Source: a virus
Reading direction: 5' to 3' (one strand)
Virus record (IMG/VR): IMGVR_UViG_3300017598_000362
Coordinates: 1 to 21,796 of that record
Length of the DNA: 21,796 bases
The notes below the pieces were generated by a model that worked only from the letters and a program-made list of their open reading frames with translations, did no database searches and was not told the DNA's origin. Shown here in pieces: positions 289-11,737 of the stretch. A program made the position numbers and the translations under genes. Numbering within the stretch: the stretch's first letter is position 1; each line of letters begins with the position of its first letter.

Positions 289-1161
289 ATGGCAGAGATG
301 AATGAAGTTAAAGTAGAAAAAAAGTTTAAACTCCCTAATGAAAAAGTTCAAGTAGAGTTCATTAAAAGGGAAAAAGGTAATGTAAAGAATAAAAATCATG
401 TGTTGTACGGTGGTATGTTAGAAGGGAGTTCGAGAACTCTATCTCCCAGACGATCCTCTACTACTTTTAAGTATGAGAAAGTACTTACGGATGAAGAACA
501 AAAGTTCCTTGAAAAAAAGCTTGGTACAGAGAAAGAAGGTCTTAATGTATATAAAAAGGATAATAATTATTGGGATTCTGTTACAGTTATTCTTAAAAAA
601 GAAGGTATAAGTCTTGATCTTTCAGACCCTATTGATTACATAAGATATAAAATATTATTATCTTATACTGATTTAGTTGCTCCTTCAATTGATGCACATA
701 AATTAAAGAATAAACTTACATATTCTTTTGTTATTGTTCATAAAGGAGATAGAGAAAATGAGAAGGTTATTAAATATAACGTTACAAAAGAAGCTTACTC
801 TATTGCATCTAAACTTGATTTAAGTACTGAGAAGACGAGAGAATTTTTATATTTATATGGAGTTAGGGTTTCTGGTGATGCTTCTGTAAAATGGATTAAA
901 GGTAAATTAGCTCAAGTTGTTGAGGATGATCCGGGTGGAGTTGTAGATTTATATACTTCTGGAAATTATGAAACCAGATCTTTACTTGCAAGAGGAGTTC
1001 TTTGTGGAGTTATAAAGGATGTTGGAAACAAATTTTATCTTGAAGATGGTGTAGCACTTGCAGCGGAAAATGAAATATCATCTTTAGCTAATAGTATTAA
1101 GTTTTTGGATGATCCTGTTAATTCAGATATTAGAATGCGTGTTGAAGCTAAAATAGGTTGA
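289..1161 (+). CDS. Conserved phage protein of unknown function (290 aa)
   Basis: The function is not known to me. The N-terminal ~60 residues are Lys/Arg-rich with a GGMLEGSSRTLSPRRSS stretch (41-57), probably flexible. A folded region follows with LNVYKKDNNYWDSV (85-98), then LDLSDPIDYIRYKILL (109-124) and APSID (131-135). The C-terminal part carries RSLLARGVLCGVIKDVGNKFYLEDG. This arrangement (a W-containing segment, an LDLSxPxDYIxYK segment, then a C-terminal G-rich hairpin) is one I recognise from unannotated proteins in large Bacteroidota phages and crAss-like phages. No membrane segment or enzymatic motif is visible. Its place directly after the capsid gene suggests a head-associated or packaged protein, but this is context only. 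The start ATG follows an A-rich stretch (GACAAAA) without a Shine-Dalgarno sequence. It ends in TGA, one base before the next ATG. Confidence 0.75.
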   Translation: MAEMNEVKVEKKFKLPNEKVQVEFIKREKGNVKNKNHVLYGGMLEGSSRTLSPRRSSTTFKYEKVLTDEEQKFLEKKLGTEKEGLNVYKKDNNYWDSVTVILKKEGISLDLSDPIDYIRYKILLSYTDLVAPSIDAHKLKNKLTYSFVIVHKGDRENEKVIKYNVTKEAYSIASKLDLSTEKTREFLYLYGVRVSGDASVKWIKGKLAQVVEDDPGGVVDLYTSGNYETRSLLARGVLCGVIKDVGNKFYLEDGVALAAENEISSLANSIKFLDDPVNSDIRMRVEAKIG

Positions 1162-1162
1162 T

Positions 1163-1807
1163 ATGACTAATACAGAATTTGCAAATGAGTTTGATATAAT
1201 TTATGAGAATATTAGCAGTGGTAATGCTCCCGGGTTAGAACCATATGAAAAATCTGTTATTCTTACTCAGGCACAGGAATCGCTTGTTCGTTCTTTATTA
1301 GCTGCTAAAAGTTATGATCCTATAGCAGATCTTATTGATACTGTAGAAATTACTTCTTCAGCAGTAACAACTAAAATAGATCCTCGTTCTGTGGCGTTTA
1401 TATTACCGACAGATTATCTGGAAATATCTAATGAGGTTGTAATTGATGGAAGTGGTCAATATTCTGTAATACCTTTACCTTATGTAGAATATACTACATT
1501 AATGTTAAAGCCTTACAAGTATCCAAGAGTAAGATCTGCCTGGAAATTGTTAAATACAAATGATTCTGATGCTAAGATAGTAGAAATATTAGCAGCATAC
1601 GGTATAACTCCGGTTACGTATAAAGCAACGGTAGTAAATTATCCTACACCTATTATATTCACTGGTGTAACGCAAACTATACGTGGAGTATCGGCACCGT
1701 CTGACACTAATTTAAAGGATTCTTTGCATCCTTCTATTTTAGATCATGCGGTGAAACTAGCAGAACAATATTATTATGATAAAGCACCTCAAACAGCTGA
1801 GAAATGA
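1163..1807 (+). CDS. crAss-like virion structural protein, paralogue A
   Basis: The N-terminus (TEFANEFDIIYENI, then APGLEPYEKSVILTQAQE at residues 23-40) matches a family found in almost every crAss-like phage next to the capsid and neck genes. It is usually labelled structural or ring/tail protein. The rest is predicted mixed alpha/beta. A segment around residues 80-100 (RSVAFILPTDYLEI) resembles the 'LPxDY' strand of neck adaptors, and the C-terminal helix contains SILDHAVKLAEQYYYDKAPQ. It is 214 aa. The start is one base after the upstream TGA. The end overlaps the next gene by four bases (ATGA), implying coupled translation. It shares its N-terminal motif and C-terminal helix with the next gene. 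The likely role is a subunit of the portal-tail neck or tail hub; which ring it forms cannot be read from sequence. Confidence 0.75.
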   Translation: MTNTEFANEFDIIYENISSGNAPGLEPYEKSVILTQAQESLVRSLLAAKSYDPIADLIDTVEITSSAVTTKIDPRSVAFILPTDYLEISNEVVIDGSGQYSVIPLPYVEYTTLMLKPYKYPRVRSAWKLLNTNDSDAKIVEILAAYGITPVTYKATVVNYPTPIIFTGVTQTIRGVSAPSDTNLKDSLHPSILDHAVKLAEQYYYDKAPQTAEK

Positions 1808-2502
1808 CGTTAACAGAAATAAGTGACATATTTGATATGAGAATGAATTCGTTCATTCCTGGTAGTCTTGTAAAAGATGAATATGAAAAATCTGTTTATC
1901 TTACAAGAGCACAGGATGTGTTTTATGATTCTTTATTGTTAGATTTTGAATCTAGTAACGAAATAGGACAAGTGCTTAAAAAACTTGTATTTTCTGTAGA
2001 TTTTTCTTCTGCTTCTTCTACAAATATGTATGGTGGACATGTTATACTTTTTACAGAACTGGTACGTAAAATATTAAGGGAAAGATATGTTACAGGTGTT
2101 ATTTCAGGTTCTGTTTTATATAGTGAGAGAGACCTTTTGGTTAAAGAAGAAAGGCTTGCAGAAATAGAAGAGTCTTTAACGAATCCTTTTAGACAACCAG
2201 GTTTATCTACATGTTTAAGGGCAGTAGAAGAAACTTTAACTTTTAATAAAGTACAGTTATATATTAATCCTGCTCTAACTGTACCTTTTGGTCATTATTA
2301 TGTAACTTATGCGAAAGAGCCAGAGCCTATAGTTCTTCAGGATTTACCTGATAATTTAGAAGTAAAAGGACAGAATACTGCTACTGTTGCTCTAGCTTTT
2401 GATGATGAGGAGGTAAATAAGATTATTGAAATAGCTGTAAATCTTGCATTGCGTGATGCAGGTATTTATGCTCAAAATAAAGCTCAACAAGAAGCGGAAT
2501 AA
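1804..2502 (+). CDS. crAss-like virion structural protein, paralogue B
   Basis: This 232-aa protein starts with TLTEISDIFDMRMNSF and carries DEYEKSVYLTRAQD, the same signature as the preceding gene. It ends in a similar helix (KIIEIAVNLALRDAGIYAQNKAQ, residues ~205-228). The pair is best read as an old tandem duplication that diverged so that the two products occupy different positions in the virion, as with stacked ring or hub proteins. The ATG overlaps the upstream stop (ATGA). The middle region (residues ~70-170) is predicted beta-rich and poorly alignable to paralogue A by eye. No membrane or catalytic motif is seen. A neck/tail role is inferred from family and location. Confidence 0.72.
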   Translation: MTLTEISDIFDMRMNSFIPGSLVKDEYEKSVYLTRAQDVFYDSLLLDFESSNEIGQVLKKLVFSVDFSSASSTNMYGGHVILFTELVRKILRERYVTGVISGSVLYSERDLLVKEERLAEIEESLTNPFRQPGLSTCLRAVEETLTFNKVQLYINPALTVPFGHYYVTYAKEPEPIVLQDLPDNLEVKGQNTATVALAFDDEEVNKIIEIAVNLALRDAGIYAQNKAQQEAE

Positions 2503-2530
2503 ATTTTTTATTAATTTAATACTTATAATC

Positions 2531-3682
2531 ATGAATACACAACAAAATGTTTTACAAGTACTTGCATGTGATTTCACAGGGCCTCAAGCTACCCAAAATG
2601 CTTTAGCGGATTTACCTGTTGGTGAACTTGCCTTTTATGATAAAACAAATACTAGACAGCCATCTGGTGCTGGTAGGTTTGTACTGAATAACGGAGGAAA
2701 GTTTATTGAAAGTAATTATCTTGCAGATTTTGCTGGATGGGATCTTAAGTCTTATACAGCTCCTGAATTGCGTGTAGAGACTGTTACTATTCCTACTCCT
2801 GTTGTAGGTAGTGTGTATATAGTCCAGGTTATTTTAGATATCCATGGAATGACTGGAAAATATATTATGCATGGTGTTTATAAAGCTCTGACAGGTGATA
2901 CTGCAACAAATGTTGCTACAGCGGTTGCTCTTTCTTTGAACAATGCCATAACACGAGAAGGCAGTACAGCTATAACTGTTACTTCGTCTGGTGCGGATGT
3001 TATTATTACTGGTAAAATGCAGACTTATGTTGCAGGTAAAAAACTTGGATTCCAGGTTCCTTTTACTGCTTCTTTATCATCTCCGGAAGATGCTGCTGTT
3101 GCAGGTGTAGTAGCTACTAATTATGCTACAGGTACTGTTACTCTTGATAGTGGTGGTGGTGGATCTGTTGATACCATAAAAGTAAATGGTGTAGATGTTA
3201 TGTCTGGCGCAGAGGCTTATGATACTAATTTACCAGATACTGCAACTAATGTAGCTGCTAATATTACAGCACATACTTCGGTTCCGAATTATACTGCAGT
3301 AGCCGTAGGTGCTGTAGTTACTATTACTTCGGAAGAAACAGGTGGTACACCTAATGGTTACACTGTAGTTTCTACTGCTACAACTATTGTAACTACTGAT
3401 GTAAATATGAGTGGTGGTCACCTTAAAGGTGGAGACAATGGTGTTGGAACTGGTAATTATGTACATGCTAAAGAATATTTTGCATGGGGTAACCAAGATT
3501 CATTCAGATATAATAGTTTTAGGAATAACTTTACTCCTAAAGTTCTCTCTGATGATTCTAAAACTTATAATGTGCAGGCTGTTTCTGAGGATGTGTATGA
3601 ACCAACAGCTCATGCGGATGTAAGAGTTTCTCTTCAGGTTTTACTTGCGTTTAATTCTGCCGGGTCTTCTCCTGCAACCTAG
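2531..3682 (+). CDS. Beta-rich virion protein with two repeat domains (383 aa)
   Basis: I start this gene at the ATG at 2531. The longer open frame from 2444 runs inside the previous gene and its extra N-terminus (Cys/Met/Lys-rich) looks non-native. The protein has an N-terminal unit (1-80, with LPVGELAFYD and SGAGRFVLNNGGKFIES), a first beta domain (~81-203), a Gly-rich linker (208-211), a second beta domain (~204-305), and a C-terminal unit (309-383, KEYFAWGNQDSFRYNSFRNN). The second domain (DTIKVNGVDVM, TATNVAANI, VTITSEETGGTPNGY) resembles small Ig-like/beta-sandwich domains common in phage tail and decoration proteins. Both domains contain a 'D-T-A-T-N-V-A' segment, suggesting duplication. 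A strong terminator follows, as expected for an abundant structural protein. Candidates are a capsid decoration/auxiliary protein or a tail tube/hub protein; I cannot choose. The stop is TAG. Confidence 0.72.
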   Translation: MNTQQNVLQVLACDFTGPQATQNALADLPVGELAFYDKTNTRQPSGAGRFVLNNGGKFIESNYLADFAGWDLKSYTAPELRVETVTIPTPVVGSVYIVQVILDIHGMTGKYIMHGVYKALTGDTATNVATAVALSLNNAITREGSTAITVTSSGADVIITGKMQTYVAGKKLGFQVPFTASLSSPEDAAVAGVVATNYATGTVTLDSGGGGSVDTIKVNGVDVMSGAEAYDTNLPDTATNVAANITAHTSVPNYTAVAVGAVVTITSEETGGTPNGYTVVSTATTIVTTDVNMSGGHLKGGDNGVGTGNYVHAKEYFAWGNQDSFRYNSFRNNFTPKVLSDDSKTYNVQAVSEDVYEPTAHADVRVSLQVLLAFNSAGSSPAT

Positions 3683-3703
3683 AATTTAAATTTGATATTT
3701 ATG

Positions 3704-3742
3704 AATAGCCTGTACCTTAAATGAGGGCAGGCTATTTTTCTT
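3704..3742 (+). terminator. Strong intrinsic terminator
   Basis: AATAGCCTG (3704-3712) pairs with CAGGCTATT (3728-3736). The upper stem can extend imperfectly through TACC/GGG, and TTTTTCTTT follows from 3735. This is a textbook Rho-independent terminator and separates the head block from the fibre and lysis genes. Confidence 0.85.
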
Positions 3743-3771
3743 TATGCTTATTTTTTCGTACTTTTGATAAA
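3735..3771 (+). promoter_or_regulatory. Putative Bacteroidota-type promoter (-7 box TACTTTTG)
   Basis: TACTTTTG at 3759-3766 is an exact match to the Bacteroidota primary-sigma -7 consensus TAnnTTTG. The expected upstream -33 TTTG element falls in the terminator's T-run, where TTTC (3737-3740) sits 18 bases before the -7 box. Transcription would begin roughly at 3771-3775, just upstream of the ATG at 3783. The position immediately after a strong terminator and before the tail-fibre block supports function. The spacing and the imperfect -33 box lower certainty. Confidence 0.6.
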
Positions 3772-3782
3772 AATACCTCGCC

Positions 3783-4349
3783 ATGATAAATATAACACAA
3801 TTTAATTTTACAGCAGACTTATCAAATATAGAATTAGTATTTGAATCTACTACTACAGAAATTATTGACTTGCAAATGTTTATAGGGGACGATTATCCAA
3901 ATACTCCTGTGGATTTAAGTGGTAAATTAACCGGGGCTAGTTCTTATGATTTTAGTGGGGCCAATGCTCTAACTCCTACAGATCTGGGTTTACCGGAAGG
4001 TACGCCGTTATCAGGAATATTCATTGTAAATATCACAAATAATGATCCTACTCCTGATATTAAAGAAGCTGGAATCATGAGTGATTATCTGCTTGTACTT
4101 TGTTTAGCTAATAAAATCATACAACAAAATCAAGAGTCAGATCTCAATGAGACTACTTATTTGTTTCTATTAATAGAAGCTACTAAGTCTTTTATGAGTG
4201 AAGAACAGTATGAGCAAGCTTTAGGGGCGTATGATAGAGCAGAATCTATTTGCGAGGCTGATCCAAACAATTATGATACTGACATACTTCCTTGTGGGGA
4301 AGGTACCGGATGCTGGATTATTGACGGAGTTTATATAGTTAAAAAATGA
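3783..4349 (+). CDS. Tail-fibre-proximal virion protein, unknown (188 aa)
   Basis: This is the first gene after the terminator/promoter junction. The N-terminal ~95 residues are predicted beta-rich (NITQFNFTADLSNIELVFES, then SGIFIVNITNNDP at ~81-93). The C-terminal half is helical, with a TPR-like segment (SEEQYEQALGAYDRAESI, ~139-156). It ends in a short Cys-containing tail (C157, C171, C177) closing with GCWIIDGVYIVKK. Proteins of this layout, with a beta N-terminus, a helical repeat and a cysteine-bearing tail, often precede tail fibres in Bacteroidota phages, but I do not recognise a named family. Its ATG is not preceded by a Shine-Dalgarno site, and its TGA overlaps the next start (ATGA). 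A fibre attachment or fibre assembly role is plausible from position only. Confidence 0.65.
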   Translation: MINITQFNFTADLSNIELVFESTTTEIIDLQMFIGDDYPNTPVDLSGKLTGASSYDFSGANALTPTDLGLPEGTPLSGIFIVNITNNDPTPDIKEAGIMSDYLLVLCLANKIIQQNQESDLNETTYLFLLIEATKSFMSEEQYEQALGAYDRAESICEADPNNYDTDILPCGEGTGCWIIDGVYIVKK

Positions 4350-4936
4350 GTATATTAGACAATAAAATAGACTTTATACTGTCTAAAGAAGACTTCATAA
4401 ACACTAGTCTAATGACTAAGTCTATGACAAGGCAGGATATTTATGGTAGAGTAAATACTAAATTGAGTATTGAAATCACTAAACTTATGTTTATACTGCA
4501 AAGTAAAGACTGGTTTGGAGAAAATACTAAATTAGCGTTATACCAGAAACTAGTAGATATGACTAGAAAACAAGGATTAATATTTAAAATCCCGAAAACA
4601 GAAGTTGTTTATCAAAGTACTATATATTATGGTGTAGCTTTACCTGGACTTCTTGAGGAGGATATTAGTACTGAATTAAGTTTAGGTTCTTCTGACACCA
4701 GGGCAGATAATATGTATACATACAATACCACAGGTACTGAAGTATACTATTATGCTTATCCTAGAGAATGGGGAAGCTTGTCTAAGATATATGACGATAA
4801 TGGATATAATACACTAGATGGGTATTATGAAAGAGAAGTTCAAATTGATATAGGCGGAATTAATAAAGATTATTATTTAATGGAATTTAAGGTGGTAAGT
4901 TCAACACTTGATTTTGATATAACCTTTGCATTTTAA
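4346..4936 (+). CDS. Tail/fibre-associated protein, unknown (196 aa)
   Basis: The N-terminal two thirds are mostly helical and polar (IDFILSKEDFINTSLMTKSM, then KLALYQKLVDMTRKQG). The C-terminal third carries TEVYYYAYPREWGSLSKI (from about residue 131), ending in LMEFKVVSSTLDFDITFAF. That 'YYAYPxxWG...' beta unit recurs in tail and baseplate proteins of Bacteroidota phages, where it often sits at the C-terminus and probably mediates trimer contacts or attachment. Translation is probably coupled to the preceding gene (four-base ATGA overlap), and the fibre gene begins two bases after its stop. The likely role is a connector between the tail and the fibre encoded downstream. This is inferred from domain style and gene order. 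Confidence 0.65.
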   Translation: MSILDNKIDFILSKEDFINTSLMTKSMTRQDIYGRVNTKLSIEITKLMFILQSKDWFGENTKLALYQKLVDMTRKQGLIFKIPKTEVVYQSTIYYGVALPGLLEEDISTELSLGSSDTRADNMYTYNTTGTEVYYYAYPREWGSLSKIYDDNGYNTLDGYYEREVQIDIGGINKDYYLMEFKVVSSTLDFDITFAF

Positions 4937-4938
4937 TT

Positions 4939-7900
4939 ATGGCAACTCAAGGACATATTCCTATAAGTTCAAACTTTGATAGAAGGTCTCCAATACCTGT
5001 AGACCCCTCTTTATACAGAGATGATATAGCAGATAGGGATGCTATACCTGTATGGCAGCGTTATCCCAATATGCAAATTGACATATTAGGTAGTAATGTA
5101 AGTTATAAACTTATATTAGGTACTGTCGATATGGATCTTGCAAATAACGCTAACTGGGTTGAGATTTTCAATACTCTGGATCCTAGTGACTATTATACAA
5201 AAATTAATCTACAGACTTCTGGAGAGTCAGAGGTTCATTGGGATAATATAACCAATGCTCCAAGTACTTTTGTAGCTACGTGGGGAACTATAATAGGAAC
5301 TCTTGCAGATCAAACAGACCTAAATAACGCATTAGGAAATAAAGAAGACGTTTTTGCTAAAAATACAGGATTTAATTTACCGCTTGGCGTTATTGCAAAT
5401 ACTGTAGCTGAAGGAGATCATAAGCATTCCCAATTATACCAACCAGATGGAACTAATCCATTCGTTTATACAGACAATGCAGGTAATTTATTTGTTGATG
5501 GTGATATCATACAAAGTGGTGTCGGATATGAAACACATGTAGAACAAGTATGGAGTGCATTAGATTTAATTATAACTAGAGACGGTGCTGTCGCTGGACT
5601 AGGTGCAGGAGAATACACTGGTATTCAAGCTACACTTTATGATGGCGTCAATGACGGTCAATTAGTATTTGATAATGGAGGTGTAGCCAGAGTAGGGGAT
5701 ATAGGAAGTTTACAACCTATTGCTACCAGGGAAGAAACTCCAACTGATGGATACTATGCTCAATGGTCTACGGCTAATCAAAGATTTGAAACTGTAGCTA
5801 TATCAGCTAATAGGATAGAAAACACAGCAACAACTTCTTATGTAGAATATGGTAATAGTGGAACAGATACATTTCTTACTAGTGTCTCAACTTCATCAGG
5901 TGGTGCAGGGGATTTATTTAGAATGTATAATGGATTAAGTGGACTATTATTTTCTATAAATGATGAAGGAGCTGTTTTATTTAAACATTCTCTTAATAGC
6001 AATGATACTACTATAGATGGAAATAATATTACTTTAAGAGGTATAGCTGCTGTAGGTAATTATATATATGGTGATGGTGGTGCTTACTTTAGGCTGCCTG
6101 TGGGAAATGGTCGTGCTTATCATCAAGTATATCCTAAAACATCAACGGAAGAAATATTAAGGTTTAGCTCTTCTACGGGAGTTAATTATCAGGGTTCTTC
6201 GGTACATCATAACAAATATACAATGTACGGAGCTACTATCCCTATGTTACGCTGGAGACATCCATTAGATAACTCACATAGTGATTTTGTGGATGGGTTA
6301 CATATAGGGAGTGATTACCATCATAATTCTTTTCCAATGGGGGCAACATATATATATTCTGCAGACTCAAGAGAAGCAGCAGCAGCATATGACGCTCAAT
6401 CGATTCATCTTATTCCCGGTAAAATTCTTGGACTCAGTACAGGAGTTGACGGTGCAGTAGTTATTGGTGCTTCTGATAGAGCAACTCCTATATATTTTAT
6501 AGATAATACAACTATAATAGGTAAAGATGGAAGTAATAATTTATTTTTTACAGATGCAGTTACAGGAACTAAGACTCTTGCAGAATTAGCTGCAGGTTCG
6601 ATAGGTCGTAGAATAGAAAATACGGCTACGACTTCATACTTGGAGTATAGTGATTCTGGTGGAGATGCCTTTTTAACTGCTGTAACAACTCTTACAGGGG
6701 ATGACGAAGTATTTGGCATTACTAATGGTAGTGCAGATAAAATATTTAAGATGAATGCTCAGGGAAGTTTCTTTAATGACGGATTTAGAGCATTCGCATA
6801 TCATCCTGTACAGCATAGTATTTATATAGGTGATAGAAAATTAACTGATCCACTTTTAACGGGTGCTAGCAGAAATATAGGTATAGGTGAAGGTACATTT
6901 ACAGATTTATCAACCGGTGATGATAATATATTAATAGGTTATTATGCTGGAACAAACATGAGCACAAGTACGCATAATGTCGCTATTGGCTCATATGCAA
7001 TGACTTCAATGGTAGCATCAAGCGATAATAACGTAGCTATAGGTTATAGAGCTGGGTATAGCGCTATCGGAGATGGAATTATTAGTATAGGAGCTTTTGC
7101 CGAAAGAGGAGGAAACTCTACGATTAGTATTGGTTATTATGCTGGATACGGAAGTACAGGAGCAAACAATATTCATATAGGGGCTAATACGGGTGCTGTT
7201 TCAGGTTATACTGGTACTCGAAATATATTCATAGGAACATATTCAGGCGGAGCAATGGGTTCTGGTTTTGATAATGTATTCATTGGTTCTTATTCAGGTA
7301 GGTATGAGACAGGGTCTAATACTTTTATGGTATCAGGTTTATCAGCAGCGGAACAGGTTGATGAAGCTACGGCTAGGACTAAGGCGTTGATTTATGGTAT
7401 ATTTGATCCGACTACAACAAGTCAAACTATTAGGTTTAATGCTAATGTAGGAATAGGAGTAGCTCCCGGAGGTGCCCCGTTGACATTAAAAGCTCAAGCA
7501 GAGGACGAAACAGTTTTTAGAATAAATGAGGTTAATAGTAATGCAAGAGCTTTTGAAATTGGCTTTAGTGGAACAAACTCTCCGTTTATACATTTTAAGC
7601 GAAGATACTCAGATATTGCTTATGATGTGATGACTTTTGACAGGACAAACGGATATGTCGGAATTGGAACAACAAGTCCAGATTATCCTTTACATGTTTT
7701 GAGGGCAGGTGGTTCAGGAACGGCAGCTTTTATGTCCGGTTCAGGTTATAATGTAGATACATATTATGGGCATGGAACTACATATCAATGGAGACTAGGT
7801 ACTTCAAGTGTAGCTGATTTTAGATTAAGAGATGAAGTAGCAGGAGCAACTAGACTGTTAATTGTTCAGGCAACAGCTAAAACTCATATGATCGGTGTCT

Positions 7901-8269: not shown

Positions 8270-8623
8270 ATGGCAAAAATTATATATGATAGCTGGGCAG
8301 TACCATTAGGATATGTAGGTATAACATTATGGCCTTTTGGGATTCATATAGCATTATCGGAAGAAGAGTATATTAGGAAGTATGGAAGAGAAAGGCTAAA
8401 TAATACTATTAATCATGAAAGGATTCATATAGCTCAACAAAAAGAATTACTTGGTATATTCTTTTATATTTTGTATGTTTTAATTTGGGTAGTATGGTTA
8501 TTTAGGTACGGTAAAAAAGCTTATCGAAATTTACCTTTTGAGAAAGAAGCTTATGAAAATGCAGGAAATTCTGAGTATCTAAAAACTCGTAAGTTATTCA
8601 GTTGGATTAAATACTTTAAATAA
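8270..8623 (+). CDS. Small membrane protein with HExxH motif (putative metallopeptidase)
   Basis: This 117-aa protein carries INHERIHIAQQKELL with a perfect zincin motif, H49-E50-x-x-H53. A hydrophobic segment follows (62-78, IFFYILYVLIWVVWLF), then the conserved-looking FEKEAYENA (90-98). Glu91 or Glu93 there could be the third zinc ligand, as in gluzincins. Similar small 'NHExIHxxQQ...FExEAY' proteins are common in Bacteroidota genomes and phages but have no assigned function I can name. It begins four bases after the fibre stop and ends four bases before the holin-like gene, so a role in lysis or envelope processing is the natural guess. It is far shorter than known phage endopeptidases and has no separate cell-wall-binding domain, so peptidoglycan cleavage is uncertain. 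Cleavage of a membrane or virion protein is an alternative. Confidence 0.75.
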   Translation: MAKIIYDSWAVPLGYVGITLWPFGIHIALSEEEYIRKYGRERLNNTINHERIHIAQQKELLGIFFYILYVLIWVVWLFRYGKKAYRNLPFEKEAYENAGNSEYLKTRKLFSWIKYFK

Positions 8624-8627
8624 AGTT

Positions 8628-9095
8628 ATGCATAAATTGACATACGTTTTATTGATTATTTCTATTGACTGGTTGTTAAAACTTGGACAGTATTTTGAGA
8701 CTTATATATTCCACGATTGGGGATTTATTAAATACTTAGGTATTCTTATTGTAGTAGATACTTTAATAGGAATATATAAAGCCAAAAAACAAAAAAAGTT
8801 CAGTTGGAAAAAACTTGGAAAGTTACAGGATAAATTAATTACCTATATTAGTATATTAGTATTAGTTCATGTCATAACCTCTTTTACTGTAGAGGATAAA
8901 GTAGTAACACTATTTCATTGGATACGTCTTGGTGCCTTATCTGGCATTATGGCTAAAGAAGCTGTATCTATTTTAAAAAATTTAGCCGCTGTAAATAAAT
9001 CTTTTATACCTATATGGATACTGAAAAAATTAGAGGCTTTTGATAAATCAGGAAAATTTGATGACGAAGAACCTAAAAATGACACAGATGATTAA
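8628..9095 (+). CDS. Holin-like membrane protein (Phage_holin_4-like)
   Basis: This 155-aa protein has three or four hydrophobic segments: ~5-20, ~32-50 (YLGILIVVDTLIGIYKAKK), ~68-86 (LITYISILVLVHVITSF) and a weaker helix at ~95-118. The 'VVDTxxGIxKAxKxKKxSWKKLG' stretch after the second helix resembles the Cph1/TcdE-type holin family (Pfam Phage_holin_4), whose members have a D-T-x-x-G element and a basic loop there. The C-terminus is charged and acidic (KFDDEEPKNDTDD), as in many holins. Holins assemble in the inner membrane and open it at the programmed time. Its neighbours are an upstream HExxH membrane protein and two downstream coiled-coil membrane proteins, making a lysis cassette. The stop overlaps the next start (ATGATTAA). 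Confidence 0.72.
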   Translation: MHKLTYVLLIISIDWLLKLGQYFETYIFHDWGFIKYLGILIVVDTLIGIYKAKKQKKFSWKKLGKLQDKLITYISILVLVHVITSFTVEDKVVTLFHWIRLGALSGIMAKEAVSILKNLAAVNKSFIPIWILKKLEAFDKSGKFDDEEPKNDTDD

Positions 9096-9438
9096 AACAG
9101 TTAAGTTCTATAAAAGACGTACCTATGCATTATTTACTATTTTAATGTTAGTAATAGGGTATTACGTAAAGACTGATATTGTTAATTTAGTACAACATAG
9201 AAAACAACAAGATACTATTAGTATACGGGATTTAACTATTAAAGAATTAAACTATAAAATTTTAGAAAGTTACGAACAACTAAACTATAAAGAAAAAGAA
9301 ATTGAAATCTTAAAAATCAATGTTGAACTTTTAAAAGACGCAGTACGTGAAAAAAGGAGTTTTAATAATAGTAATATTATTGACACTAAGTCAATCCATA
9401 CGGACTCAACAGGTAACGTTATTAAAATCGGGGAATGA
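9088..9438 (+). CDS. Membrane-anchored coiled-coil protein, possible i-spanin-like (Rz-like)
   Basis: The frame is open upstream (TTG at 9040, ATGs at 9061 and 9079). I prefer the ATG at 9088 because it overlaps the holin stop as ATGATTAA, exactly the overlap used at 11730, and because the product then begins with a clean basic-hydrophobic anchor. That gives 116 aa: KFYKRR, one membrane helix (about 12-27, YALFTILMLVIGYYV), then a long charged helix with heptad-like spacing (about 39-85) and a polar tail. The N-in single-helix anchor followed by a periplasmic coiled coil is the plan of inner-membrane spanins such as lambda Rz. Its 3' end overlaps the next gene by 92 bases in another frame, as spanin pairs often do. 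There is no sequence match I recognise, so the role is inferred from topology and location. Confidence 0.6.
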   Translation: MIKTVKFYKRRTYALFTILMLVIGYYVKTDIVNLVQHRKQQDTISIRDLTIKELNYKILESYEQLNYKEKEIEILKINVELLKDAVREKRSFNNSNIIDTKSIHTDSTGNVIKIGE

Positions 9439-9784
9439 TACAATAGCAGTATTACCGTTAAAAGCCATAAGGAATATTAATTCTCAATTAAAAGAGGCGA
9501 GAGTTATAAAGGCTGAGTCTATTGTGTTAAAGAAAAAACTAGTATATTCAAATATTACACTACAAGAAAAAGAAAGTATAATACTCAAACAGCAAAGAGA
9601 AATAGTCTTAAAAGACTCTATAATAAATATACAAAGTATAAAGATTAAACGTCAAGGATGGGATTGGTTAAGAGCTGAAAATAAGTACGAGAGAGAAAAG
9701 AAAAAAGTCATTAAATTTAAAAGGTTTTTTATAGGTAGTTTAGTTTTATCTACAGGAATTATAACTTTAATCTTAATCAAATGA
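9347..9784 (+). CDS. Signal-peptide coiled-coil protein with C-terminal membrane anchor
   Basis: It starts at GTG (9347), chosen because it yields a clear signal-like N-terminus, MKKGVLIIVILLTLSQS (1-17). A long charged helical region follows (about 40-120, e.g. LQEKESIILKQQREIVLKDS), then a C-terminal hydrophobic helix (RFFIGSLVLSTGIITLILIK, ~126-145). The protein contains no cysteine, so it cannot be a lipoprotein. A signal at one end and a membrane anchor at the other resemble the plan of unimolecular spanins, except that those are outer-membrane lipoproteins at the N-terminus. It could be a variant spanin, a partner of the preceding coiled-coil protein, or an unrelated virion or membrane factor. 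It overlaps the previous gene by 92 bases in a different frame. A 75-base gap follows to the ATG I prefer for the next gene. Confidence 0.6.
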   Translation: MKKGVLIIVILLTLSQSIRTQQVTLLKSGNDTIAVLPLKAIRNINSQLKEARVIKAESIVLKKKLVYSNITLQEKESIILKQQREIVLKDSIINIQSIKIKRQGWDWLRAENKYEREKKKVIKFKRFFIGSLVLSTGIITLILIK

Positions 9785-9859: not shown

Positions 9860-10507
9860 ATGAAAAAGGATAGATTAATTTATGATGTAAGAGAGGCAGT
9901 CAGAGCTTATAGTAATGATGCTAAGCTTACTAATGCTTATGTGTTACATAAAATAGATGTTGTAAGAGCTAAATACATTCGACAGCATCAACGTAAAAAT
10001 CCTGGTGAGTCTAAATTAGGATTTACGCAAACTTTATTAATGGCTACAGAACTTGTGGATAGTTCATATTTATCTACTGTCACTGTTGGTACGACTTTGT
10101 TACGTACAGTAAAGGCTTTACCTACTATTATAGGTAAAACTTTTTTAAAAGATGTAGTTGTACGTCCTGTAGATAGAATAGTTGAAGAAATAGAATATAT
10201 GGATAAAGTCAGGGCTATAGTTGCTACTATTCCTAAGCTTATTTTTGCATATTTGGATGATGATATGCATATGTATTTCGTACAAAGACAAGATTCTATA
10301 TATAAATTTTTACAAAATGTAGCTATTAGTGTTATACTAGAAACACCTGAAGATATAGTTTCTATTAATGAGCTTGACACGGATTTAGTTGAATACCCTA
10401 TAACTGAAGCTATGTGGGCATTAATGAAACCTGAAGTATTAGAGTATATGTATAAAATTATGCAAATACCGGTTGATCAGTTAGACGATAATCAAACACA
10501 ACAATAA
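9860..10507 (+). CDS. crAss-like neck/ring structural protein (215 aa)
   Basis: The start is taken at the ATG at 9860; a TTG at 9848 would add four residues (MNYN) with no family support. The N-terminus reads IYDVREAVRAYSNDAKLTNA, then VVRAKYIRQHQRKN (33-46). This 'xxVRExLRAYSDDSxLTxxYxLxxIxxxRAKYxRQ' opening is one I recognise from a protein conserved across crAss-like phages, always located shortly before the ring-1 and muzzle genes. The remainder is predicted alpha/beta, with no membrane segment or enzyme motif. It is probably a component of the portal-tail neck (a ring protein, perhaps that called ring protein 2 in the crAss001 virion), though the exact ring is an inference from gene order. 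Confidence 0.75.
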   Translation: MKKDRLIYDVREAVRAYSNDAKLTNAYVLHKIDVVRAKYIRQHQRKNPGESKLGFTQTLLMATELVDSSYLSTVTVGTTLLRTVKALPTIIGKTFLKDVVVRPVDRIVEEIEYMDKVRAIVATIPKLIFAYLDDDMHMYFVQRQDSIYKFLQNVAISVILETPEDIVSINELDTDLVEYPITEAMWALMKPEVLEYMYKIMQIPVDQLDDNQTQQ

Positions 10508-11044: not shown

Positions 11045-11737
11045 ATGATAACAATAAATGATATTATGTACCGTGTGTACCGGAATCCTTTACTACAGAA
11101 TGTACGTAAAGTTGATATTGTAGAGGATATTAAATCAGTATTGAAATTACTGAATGTGCCAGTACATTTGGAAGAAAAACGCATTGTAATTAATGTACAA
11201 GAGTATCGTGCTATATTACCAAAGGACTTACATCAGGTTAAACATGTTATAGCTATGAATGTTGGGGGATACCAGAGAAGACTTAGACATTCTTCAGATA
11301 TAAGAGTAGAACATCAAGGGGAGTTTAGGGATAAAATAGTTTCTACTGCTACTTATAAAGTAGTTCCTGGTTGGTTATACACTGATTTTAAATCTGGTGA
11401 TGTAGAAGTTATTTATACCGGTTTTACTTTAGATCCTGATGGTTATCCACTTATTCCAGATGATGAATCCTTATTACTTGCTATAATAGCTTTTGTAAAA
11501 GTAAATTATTTTACTACTTTAGTAGAAATGGGGCATATGGCTATGGGTATTTTAGAAAGAGCAGAGCAACAGTATAACTGGTATATGGGGCAAGCTTCTA
11601 ACTCTTTAGATATGCCTACGTCTGAAGAAACTGAATCATTATTTAATGCTTTAATTAGACTTATACCTGATAGAGATTCTTTTGAAACTAATGATAAATT
11701 TAGAAGTAATAAAGAAATACTAAAAAATCATGATTAA
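11045..11737 (+). CDS. Ring protein 1-like neck/tail adaptor
   Basis: The opening TINDIMYRVYRNPLLQNV (3-20), LKLLNVPVHLEEK (33-45), and the strand INVQEYRAILPKDLHQVKHV (49-68) match the crAss-like family annotated as ring protein 1 or tail tubular protein. It is related in position to P22 gp4-like adaptors below the portal. The C-terminal half has the expected helical region (IPDDESLLLAIIAFVKVNYF, then a helix with ERAEQQYNWYMGQ) and a polar tail. It is 230 aa, close to what I expect for the family. The gene overlaps the muzzle gene by eight bases (ATGATTAA), so the two are probably translated together. The product would form the dodecameric ring joining the head-side neck to the muzzle. Confidence 0.82.
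   Translation: MITINDIMYRVYRNPLLQNVRKVDIVEDIKSVLKLLNVPVHLEEKRIVINVQEYRAILPKDLHQVKHVIAMNVGGYQRRLRHSSDIRVEHQGEFRDKIVSTATYKVVPGWLYTDFKSGDVEVIYTGFTLDPDGYPLIPDDESLLLAIIAFVKVNYFTTLVEMGHMAMGILERAEQQYNWYMGQASNSLDMPTSEETESLFNALIRLIPDRDSFETNDKFRSNKEILKNHD

Follow-up and report, generated by a model that had tools for sequence, protein, structure and literature searches.

A pair of small genes that overlap out of frame and encode no cysteine, here called P1 and P2, lies in the lysis cassette of a crAss-like phage, and three more crAss-like lineages carry the same layout in the corresponding slot; it is a real, recurrent non-lipoprotein gene pair at the spanin slot. Our analysis inclines us, with moderate confidence, to the view that the pair would act as a two-component equivalent of a spanin that dispenses with a lipoprotein and performs the outer-membrane step of lysis, an estimate that concerns function and not the location of the P2 tail.

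The gene pair and its cassette

The window, by which we mean the whole 21.8 kb stretch of DNA analysed, is a complete virus record, yet a fragment of a crAss-like phage genome. Its ring protein 1 (11045-11737) matches PF24228 far above the Pfam cut-off and leads in tblastn searches to crAss-like phages, the nearest of which is ~33% identical. The cassette runs in the order tail fibre gene, zincin, holin, P1, P2 and ring protein 2 (Table 1). The zincin is the first gene downstream of the tail fibre gene (1108 aa), the last 8 bp of the holin gene are shared with the start of P1, and the ring protein 2 gene forms the downstream edge of the cassette and marks the phage order. No endolysin or other peptidoglycan hydrolase was identified within the window. 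The NHE.IH motif of the zincin is invariant across seven relatives; the family is common in Bacteroidota phages, is present also in Flavobacteriaceae chromosomes, and sits beside holins. The zincin match in Shigella phage Henu10 (OQ791282.1, H72) is identical to that of Riemerella phages, with coordinates equal to those in Riemerella phage PT15, and the host label of this record may be wrong.

Table 1. Features of the lysis cassette in the window and of the pairs of like architecture in other crAss-like contigs (each in its own numbering)
Feature	Position	Strand	Description	Basis
Zincin	8270..8623	+	HExxH, membrane-associated protease-like, 117 aa	phrog_15610 'protease', E 8e-26
Holin	8628..9095	+	Phage_holin_4_1 family, 155 aa	PF05105, 43.9 bits (cut-off 22.2); PHROG holin families
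P1	9088..9438	+	116 aa, ATG start, no Cys, i-spanin-like topology	ORF and sequence
P2	9347..9784	+	145 aa, GTG start, no Cys; signal peptide, long helices, hydrophobic C-terminal tail	ORF and sequence
P2 signal peptide	9347..9391	+	MKKGVLIIVILLTLS	Sequence; putative signal peptidase I cut before Gln (TLS/QS)
P1/P2 overlap	9347..9438	+	P1 C-terminus and P2 signal peptide, 92 bp, out of frame	ORF coordinates, re-encoding null
P2 tail	9725..9781	+	FFIGSLVLSTGIITLILIK, hydrophobic, C-terminal	Sequence; charges counted
Tail ring protein 2	9863..10507	+	CrAss_Ring_2	PF25702, 65.6 bits (cut-off 27)
L131 pair	P1-type 4471-4809, P2-type 4727-5143		Overlap 83 bp	
L133 pair	P1-type 3390-3800, P2-type 3658-4143		Overlap 143 bp	
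L163 pair	P1-type 574-930, P2-type 821-1213		Overlap 110 bp	

P1, for which an in-frame ATG at 9079 offers a second possible start, carries a single N-terminal hydrophobic segment, a transmembrane (TM) segment at about 9121-9171, and the rest of the protein presumably forms a charged, helical region in the periplasm. P2 begins with a putative signal peptide that appears to fit the Q-rule of Bacteroidetes signal peptides (PMC5837995), its proposed cleavage site lying ahead of Gln. Its hydrophobic C-terminal tail (mean hydrophobicity 2.4 over 17 residues) is preceded by a K/R-rich stretch of net charge +6 in 15 residues, with a single Lys at its end. The preliminary description of this DNA had given P1 an N-terminal anchor, and P2 a signal-like N-terminus and a C-terminal membrane helix; a single N-terminal hydrophobic segment is present in P1 and both hydrophobic ends in P2, and its statement that neither protein contains cysteine was confirmed, which makes a lipoprotein impossible within the pair. 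The coiled coils that it had assigned to both proteins did not stand, heptad contrast being no better than in shuffled sequence (P=0.31 for P1 and P=0.97 for P2). Helical periodicity relative to shuffled sequence was likewise not above chance (P=0.20 and P=0.57, respectively). AlphaFold2, run for P2 on a shallow alignment of four rows, predicted long helices at residues 38-67 and 72-144 with pLDDT mostly of 65-82 (mean 69.7). Since the periodicity does not exceed chance and AlphaFold2 predicts helices in P2, this protein is most safely described as having "long charged helices".

Recurrence in other crAss-like lineages

Tblastn against 50,697 phage records gave no match for P1 or P2 of the window, nor for the P2 proteins of contigs L131, L133 and L163 or P1 of L163. 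The only relative of the window pair in IMG/VR is L002, a separate contig of practically the same phage with identical frames and no lipobox; as the two differ at one position in 1.9 kb, this comparison carries no evolutionary information in the pair region. About 80 crAss-like contigs were gathered via ring protein 1 and 80 contigs via the zincin, and 199 sequences were scanned on both strands for the overlapping-pair architecture itself. Overlapping pairs without lipobox came up in the lysis slot in four crAss-like lineages, namely the window, L131, L133 and L163; besides these, the scan matched several lipobox proteins and one antisense case that is clearly spurious. A further 85 loci, of which 80 are zincin loci of bacterial genomes, yielded no pair; they span 0.94 Mb, chiefly of Flavobacteriaceae chromosomes, and the scan was slightly stricter there through an extra filter on charged residues.

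The layout found consists of a gene for a protein with an N-terminal TM segment (N-TM), overlapped out of frame by a gene encoding a signal of the signal peptidase I (SPI) type, a helix and a C-terminal tail, with ring protein 2 downstream and no lipobox. Its recurrence in L131, L133 and L163, in architecture and at the same slot, is what would be expected of the conserved pair without lipobox envisaged in the preliminary description. Gln follows the putative cleavage site in all four lineages, as it does at the equivalent site in Croceibacter phage P2559S. L163 has two relatives, L304 and L305, and the P2 of L304 is 90% identical to its own. According to gene calls for holins and endolysins that were read from the sequences rather than made by family search, L131 has two holin-like genes ahead of the pair and an M15-type endolysin after it, L133 a small TM gene and an amidase ahead of it, and L163 an amidase, while in L304 a 94 aa holin-like gene with two TM segments lies directly upstream.

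In all four lineages the pair is found a short way ahead of ring protein 2 or of the genes next to it, and this constant position between the holin/endolysin genes and ring protein 2 argues against an envelope function apart from lysis. Small phage membrane proteins often serve in superinfection exclusion or surface modification, and a role in superinfection exclusion or in late modification of the cell surface would fit that general pattern; given the position, we regard it as quite improbable for P1 and P2.

No homology of the window pair to the other pairs can be detected by sequence (BLASTP E>0.6; hhalign E 0.07 over 14 columns), so that their comparison rests on architecture and synteny, and on these values the window pair was rejected as a proven homologue of those in L131, L133 and L163. 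A P2 profile (A6) searched in 400 genomes of one bacterial family gave weak matches, mostly in long ORFs, that were judged to be chance, and a genome scan with the P2 of L131 found no relative. A weak C-terminal motif (around N.....DS[LF][WF]) is common to the P1 proteins of L131, L133 and L163 and absent from the window P1; it is a possible interaction site.

Both frames as genes

The overlap of 92 bases in different frames that had been described for the pair holds at the coordinates of both ORFs. As a null for this overlap, P1 was re-encoded with synonymous codons and the P2 frame was checked in each trial. The P2 frame stays open in 1.4% of the re-encodings, and an open frame combined with a start and a signal-like core arises in 0.13%; the overlap in the window is more than chance. 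Selection was assessed in a single comparison, that of L163 with L304 (85% identical over 720 bases), which carry an architecturally equivalent pair and not that of the window. Where only P2 is encoded, nonsynonymous changes make up 7 of 22, against an expectation of 76% (P=1e-5), which indicates that P2 is under purifying selection in these phages, and where only P1 is encoded they make up 34 of 51 (P=0.05). The overlap itself has accumulated 7 changes in 110 bases versus 51 in the remaining 247 bases of P1 (6.4% vs 20.6%; Fisher P=5e-4). Both frames are thus kept in L163 and L304, and the concern that one of the two might prove unconserved in homologues is not borne out there.

These results bear on the suspicion that the pair is an artefact, with one frame being no gene, or P2 being a u-spanin that lost its lipobox through sequencing error or a wrong start. 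The GTG start of P2 would suit such a reading, and there is a precedent in phage ADB-2, whose u-spanin homologue lacks a lipobox, suspected by Kongari et al. to reflect sequencing error (PMC6139136). An artefact is nevertheless extremely improbable in view of the 0.13% outcome of the re-encoding null, the identical frames without lipobox in the separate contig L002, the same layout in three other lineages, none of them with a lipobox, and the purifying selection on P2 in L163 and L304.

Lipobox search and class assignment

The lipobox scanner, which reads every frame and allows for alternative starts, picks up 10 of 10 N-termini of known lipoproteins. Neither the window nor the contigs L131, L133, L163 (86.8 kb) and L304 (81 kb), contigs that may be incomplete, yielded a credible lipoprotein ORF; what the scanner matched were short ORFs, either shadow or hydrophobic ones, and an upstream start of the window structural gene at 2444-3682. 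A separate lipobox-containing spanin, which would have told against the preliminary reading, was therefore credible neither in the 21.8 kb window fragment nor in the two larger pair-bearing contigs.

With respect to the known classes, P1 has the features of an i-spanin, that is, a type II inner-membrane protein with a helical periplasmic domain, its orientation being inferred from sequence. The arrangement of the genes, with a 92 bp overlap and a place directly after the holin, corresponds to that of Rz/Rz1 genes, which are overlapped, embedded or adjacent in the lysis cassette. An o-spanin is an outer-membrane lipoprotein with a lipobox; P2 contains no Cys, and no ORF nearby carries a lipobox in any frame. 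A u-spanin bears an N-terminal lipoprotein signal and a C-terminal transmembrane domain (TMD); P2 has no Cys and an SPI-type signal with Gln at +1, and it does possess a hydrophobic tail, although with a charge pattern the reverse of that in lipobox u-spanins. Membership of the pair among classic Rz/Rz1 or u-spanins thus fails on the lipobox, and neither P1 nor P2 matches phrog_25644.

The slot in other crAss-like phages

The contents of the slot were surveyed in 78 crAss-like loci, of which 14 had too little upstream sequence and 24 had no candidate. The slot is filled by N-TM proteins of the phrog_25644 type in 21 loci, DUF6549-like proteins in seven, lipobox u-spanins in seven, the non-lipobox pair in four and a single chain in one, counts that are not independent, as several contigs are near-identical. 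The single chain (L159, 3977-4627; 216 aa) has an N-terminal TM segment, a long helix and a C-terminal tail, and resembles a P1-type and a P2-type protein fused together. It matches Rz-like spanin families of PHROG at E 5e-7, 1.5e-4 and 2e-4, which is support rather than proof, since the unrelated N-TM helical protein of L168 also touches phrog_89 (E 0.011) and helical composition may account for part of the match. Riemerella phage RAP44 has the order zincin, holin, lipobox u-spanin and endolysin, which is the window order with a u-spanin at the place of the pair.

The phrog_25644-type proteins of L008 (7150-7728), L181 (44184-44783), L291 (22998-23621) and the 21 crAss-like loci combine an N-terminal TM segment with C-terminal beta strands and adjoin holin and endolysin. 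An AlphaFold2 model of one of them has four C-terminal strands (141-188), and a PDB fold search with this model returned nothing significant; the type is a possible non-lipoprotein unimolecular spanin. Bacterial chromosomes of the family of G001 (L283, L284, L285 and L287) hold, in this order, a CHAP-like hydrolase, a PF05105 holin and an N-TM protein of ~200 aa with a beta-rich C-terminus, a possible host-encoded lysis-like cassette. The PF05105 neighbours in this family were rejected as equivalents of the pair, their arrangement being different.

Tail charges and proposed mechanism

In all eight lipobox u-spanins the net charge after the C-terminal TM segment is +2 to +4 and that before it -1 to +3, versus +3 to +6 before and 0 or +1 after the tails of the non-lipobox proteins (window, L131, L133 and the L159 chain), a comparison of small samples; the L163 tail has a Glu inside, and its charges were read by eye. 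Because the pattern is reversed relative to the lipobox u-spanins, we infer that entry of the tail from the periplasmic side is favoured. A tail this hydrophobic would, on the other hand, normally be retained in the inner membrane through the Sec translocon, and the pair would then have no direct contact with the outer membrane. Given a spanin-like role, we judge residence of the P2 tail in the outer membrane an about even prospect, residence in the inner membrane as a type I i-spanin plausible to a somewhat lesser degree, and any other location a small chance.

Two alternatives place both proteins in the inner membrane. According to the first, P1 (type II) and P2 (type I) would pair through their periplasmic helices to regulate the holin or to sense the envelope, in the manner of an antiholin or lysis timer. 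The hydrophobicity of the tail (mean 2.4 over 17 residues) suits an inner-membrane anchor, the pair directly follows the holin, and L159 carries both hydrophobic ends in one chain. However, the tail charges are the reverse of those of a usual type I inner-membrane anchor and of all lipobox u-spanins examined, the slot is elsewhere filled by spanin-type or spanin-like proteins, and no alternative spanin lipoprotein was found in the L163 or L304 contigs, so that we consider this role unlikely, if deserving of attention. The second alternative, which we rate lower still, takes P1 and P2 as inner-membrane subunits of a spanin whose outer-membrane contact would be made via a host outer-membrane protein or a phage lipoprotein encoded outside the fragment. 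In the view of Kongari et al., a type I protein with a C-terminal TMD might serve as an i-spanin (PMC6139136), and the window record is a fragment; nonetheless, the larger L163 and L304 contigs of the same architecture show no phage lipoprotein.

The spanin-like reading of the preliminary description, which we prefer to both, keeps its footing in the lysis-cassette position, the overlap architecture, the lack of a lipoprotein and the recurrence, while its coiled-coil part is given up. In such a mechanism P1 would stay in the inner membrane through its N-terminal TM segment with its remainder in the periplasm, while Sec would export P2 and signal peptidase I would cleave it ahead of Gln; judging from the predicted helix length, P2 would form a helical rod roughly 15 nm long. 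The two proteins would join up across the periplasm; once the holin has triggered and the peptidoglycan is removed, they could collapse the envelope in spanin fashion, with the P2 tail as a second membrane anchor that would replace the lipid of an o-spanin. In our working model the tail enters from the periplasmic side and its K/R cluster lies at the inner surface of the outer membrane, which is rich in phosphate. If the pair works as proposed, it would constitute a second means of bridging or rupturing the outer membrane, one without lipid, show annotators of crAss-like and other Bacteroidota phages what to search for, and turn a stated open question into one testable by gene deletion.

Comparison with known systems

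In the survey by Kongari et al., about 13% of phage genomes, those of three Bacteroidota phages among them, were without a recognisable spanin; that study identified the outer-membrane subunit by criteria that relied on a lipobox (PMC6139136). We inspected these three "spanin-less" phages, P2559S, P2559Y and B124-14. P2559Y has a phrog_25644 protein after its amidase, and B124-14 an N-TM protein after its endolysin. In Croceibacter phage P2559S (L289, 27300-28065) the endolysin is followed by gp29, an N-TM helical protein, whose gene is overlapped in another frame by an ORF of 185 aa (27508-28065) with a Q-rule signal peptide, a helix and a beta-like C-terminus, of which RefSeq annotates only the last 79 codons (gp30).

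A broader conjecture, offered tentatively and with low confidence, is that many Bacteroidota phages use non-lipoprotein spanins with a C-terminal outer-membrane anchor, either a K/R-flanked hydrophobic tail, as in the window pair, or a small beta domain, as in P2559S and phrog_25644, each occurring either split, paired with an N-TM partner, or joined to the N-TM in a single chain. If true, spanins anchored in this way would explain the "spanin-less" Bacteroidota phages. In the literature searched we found no description of such a pair in crAss-like phages, the crAss-like review mentioning spanins only in general.

The pair resembles Rz/Rz1 of lambda in its two small lysis-cassette genes that overlap out of frame and in the type II inner-membrane topology of the first product, but P2 is a long, helical non-lipoprotein (no Cys, SPI-type signal) with a hydrophobic tail, whereas Rz1-type proteins are short, Pro-rich lipoproteins. 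With u-spanins (T1 gp11, RAP44, the crAss-like L161 and Flavobacterium phage 11b gp49) P2 shares an N-terminal export signal, a periplasmic domain, a hydrophobic C-terminus and the slot; it differs from them in lacking a lipobox, in having its positive charges before and not after the C-terminal segment, and in its overlapping N-TM partner gene. The phrog_25644 proteins (phi14:2 g076, phi38:1 gp084, P2559Y gp23 and those of many crAss-like phages) are likewise non-lipoproteins with an N-terminal TM segment at the same slot by the holin or endolysin, but are single proteins with a C-terminal beta-rich region instead of a tail helix. DUF6549-like proteins (Bacteroides phage B124-14 and the crAss-like L005) are N-TM helical proteins without lipobox adjoining endolysin or holin, and in contrast to the pair each is a single protein with its own C-terminal domain and without an overlapping partner. 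The P2559S pair, which follows the endolysin, has in common with P1 and P2 an N-TM partner overlapped out of frame by a helical protein with a Q-rule signal and no lipobox, while its second protein ends in apparent beta strands and Trp rather than in a hydrophobic helix.
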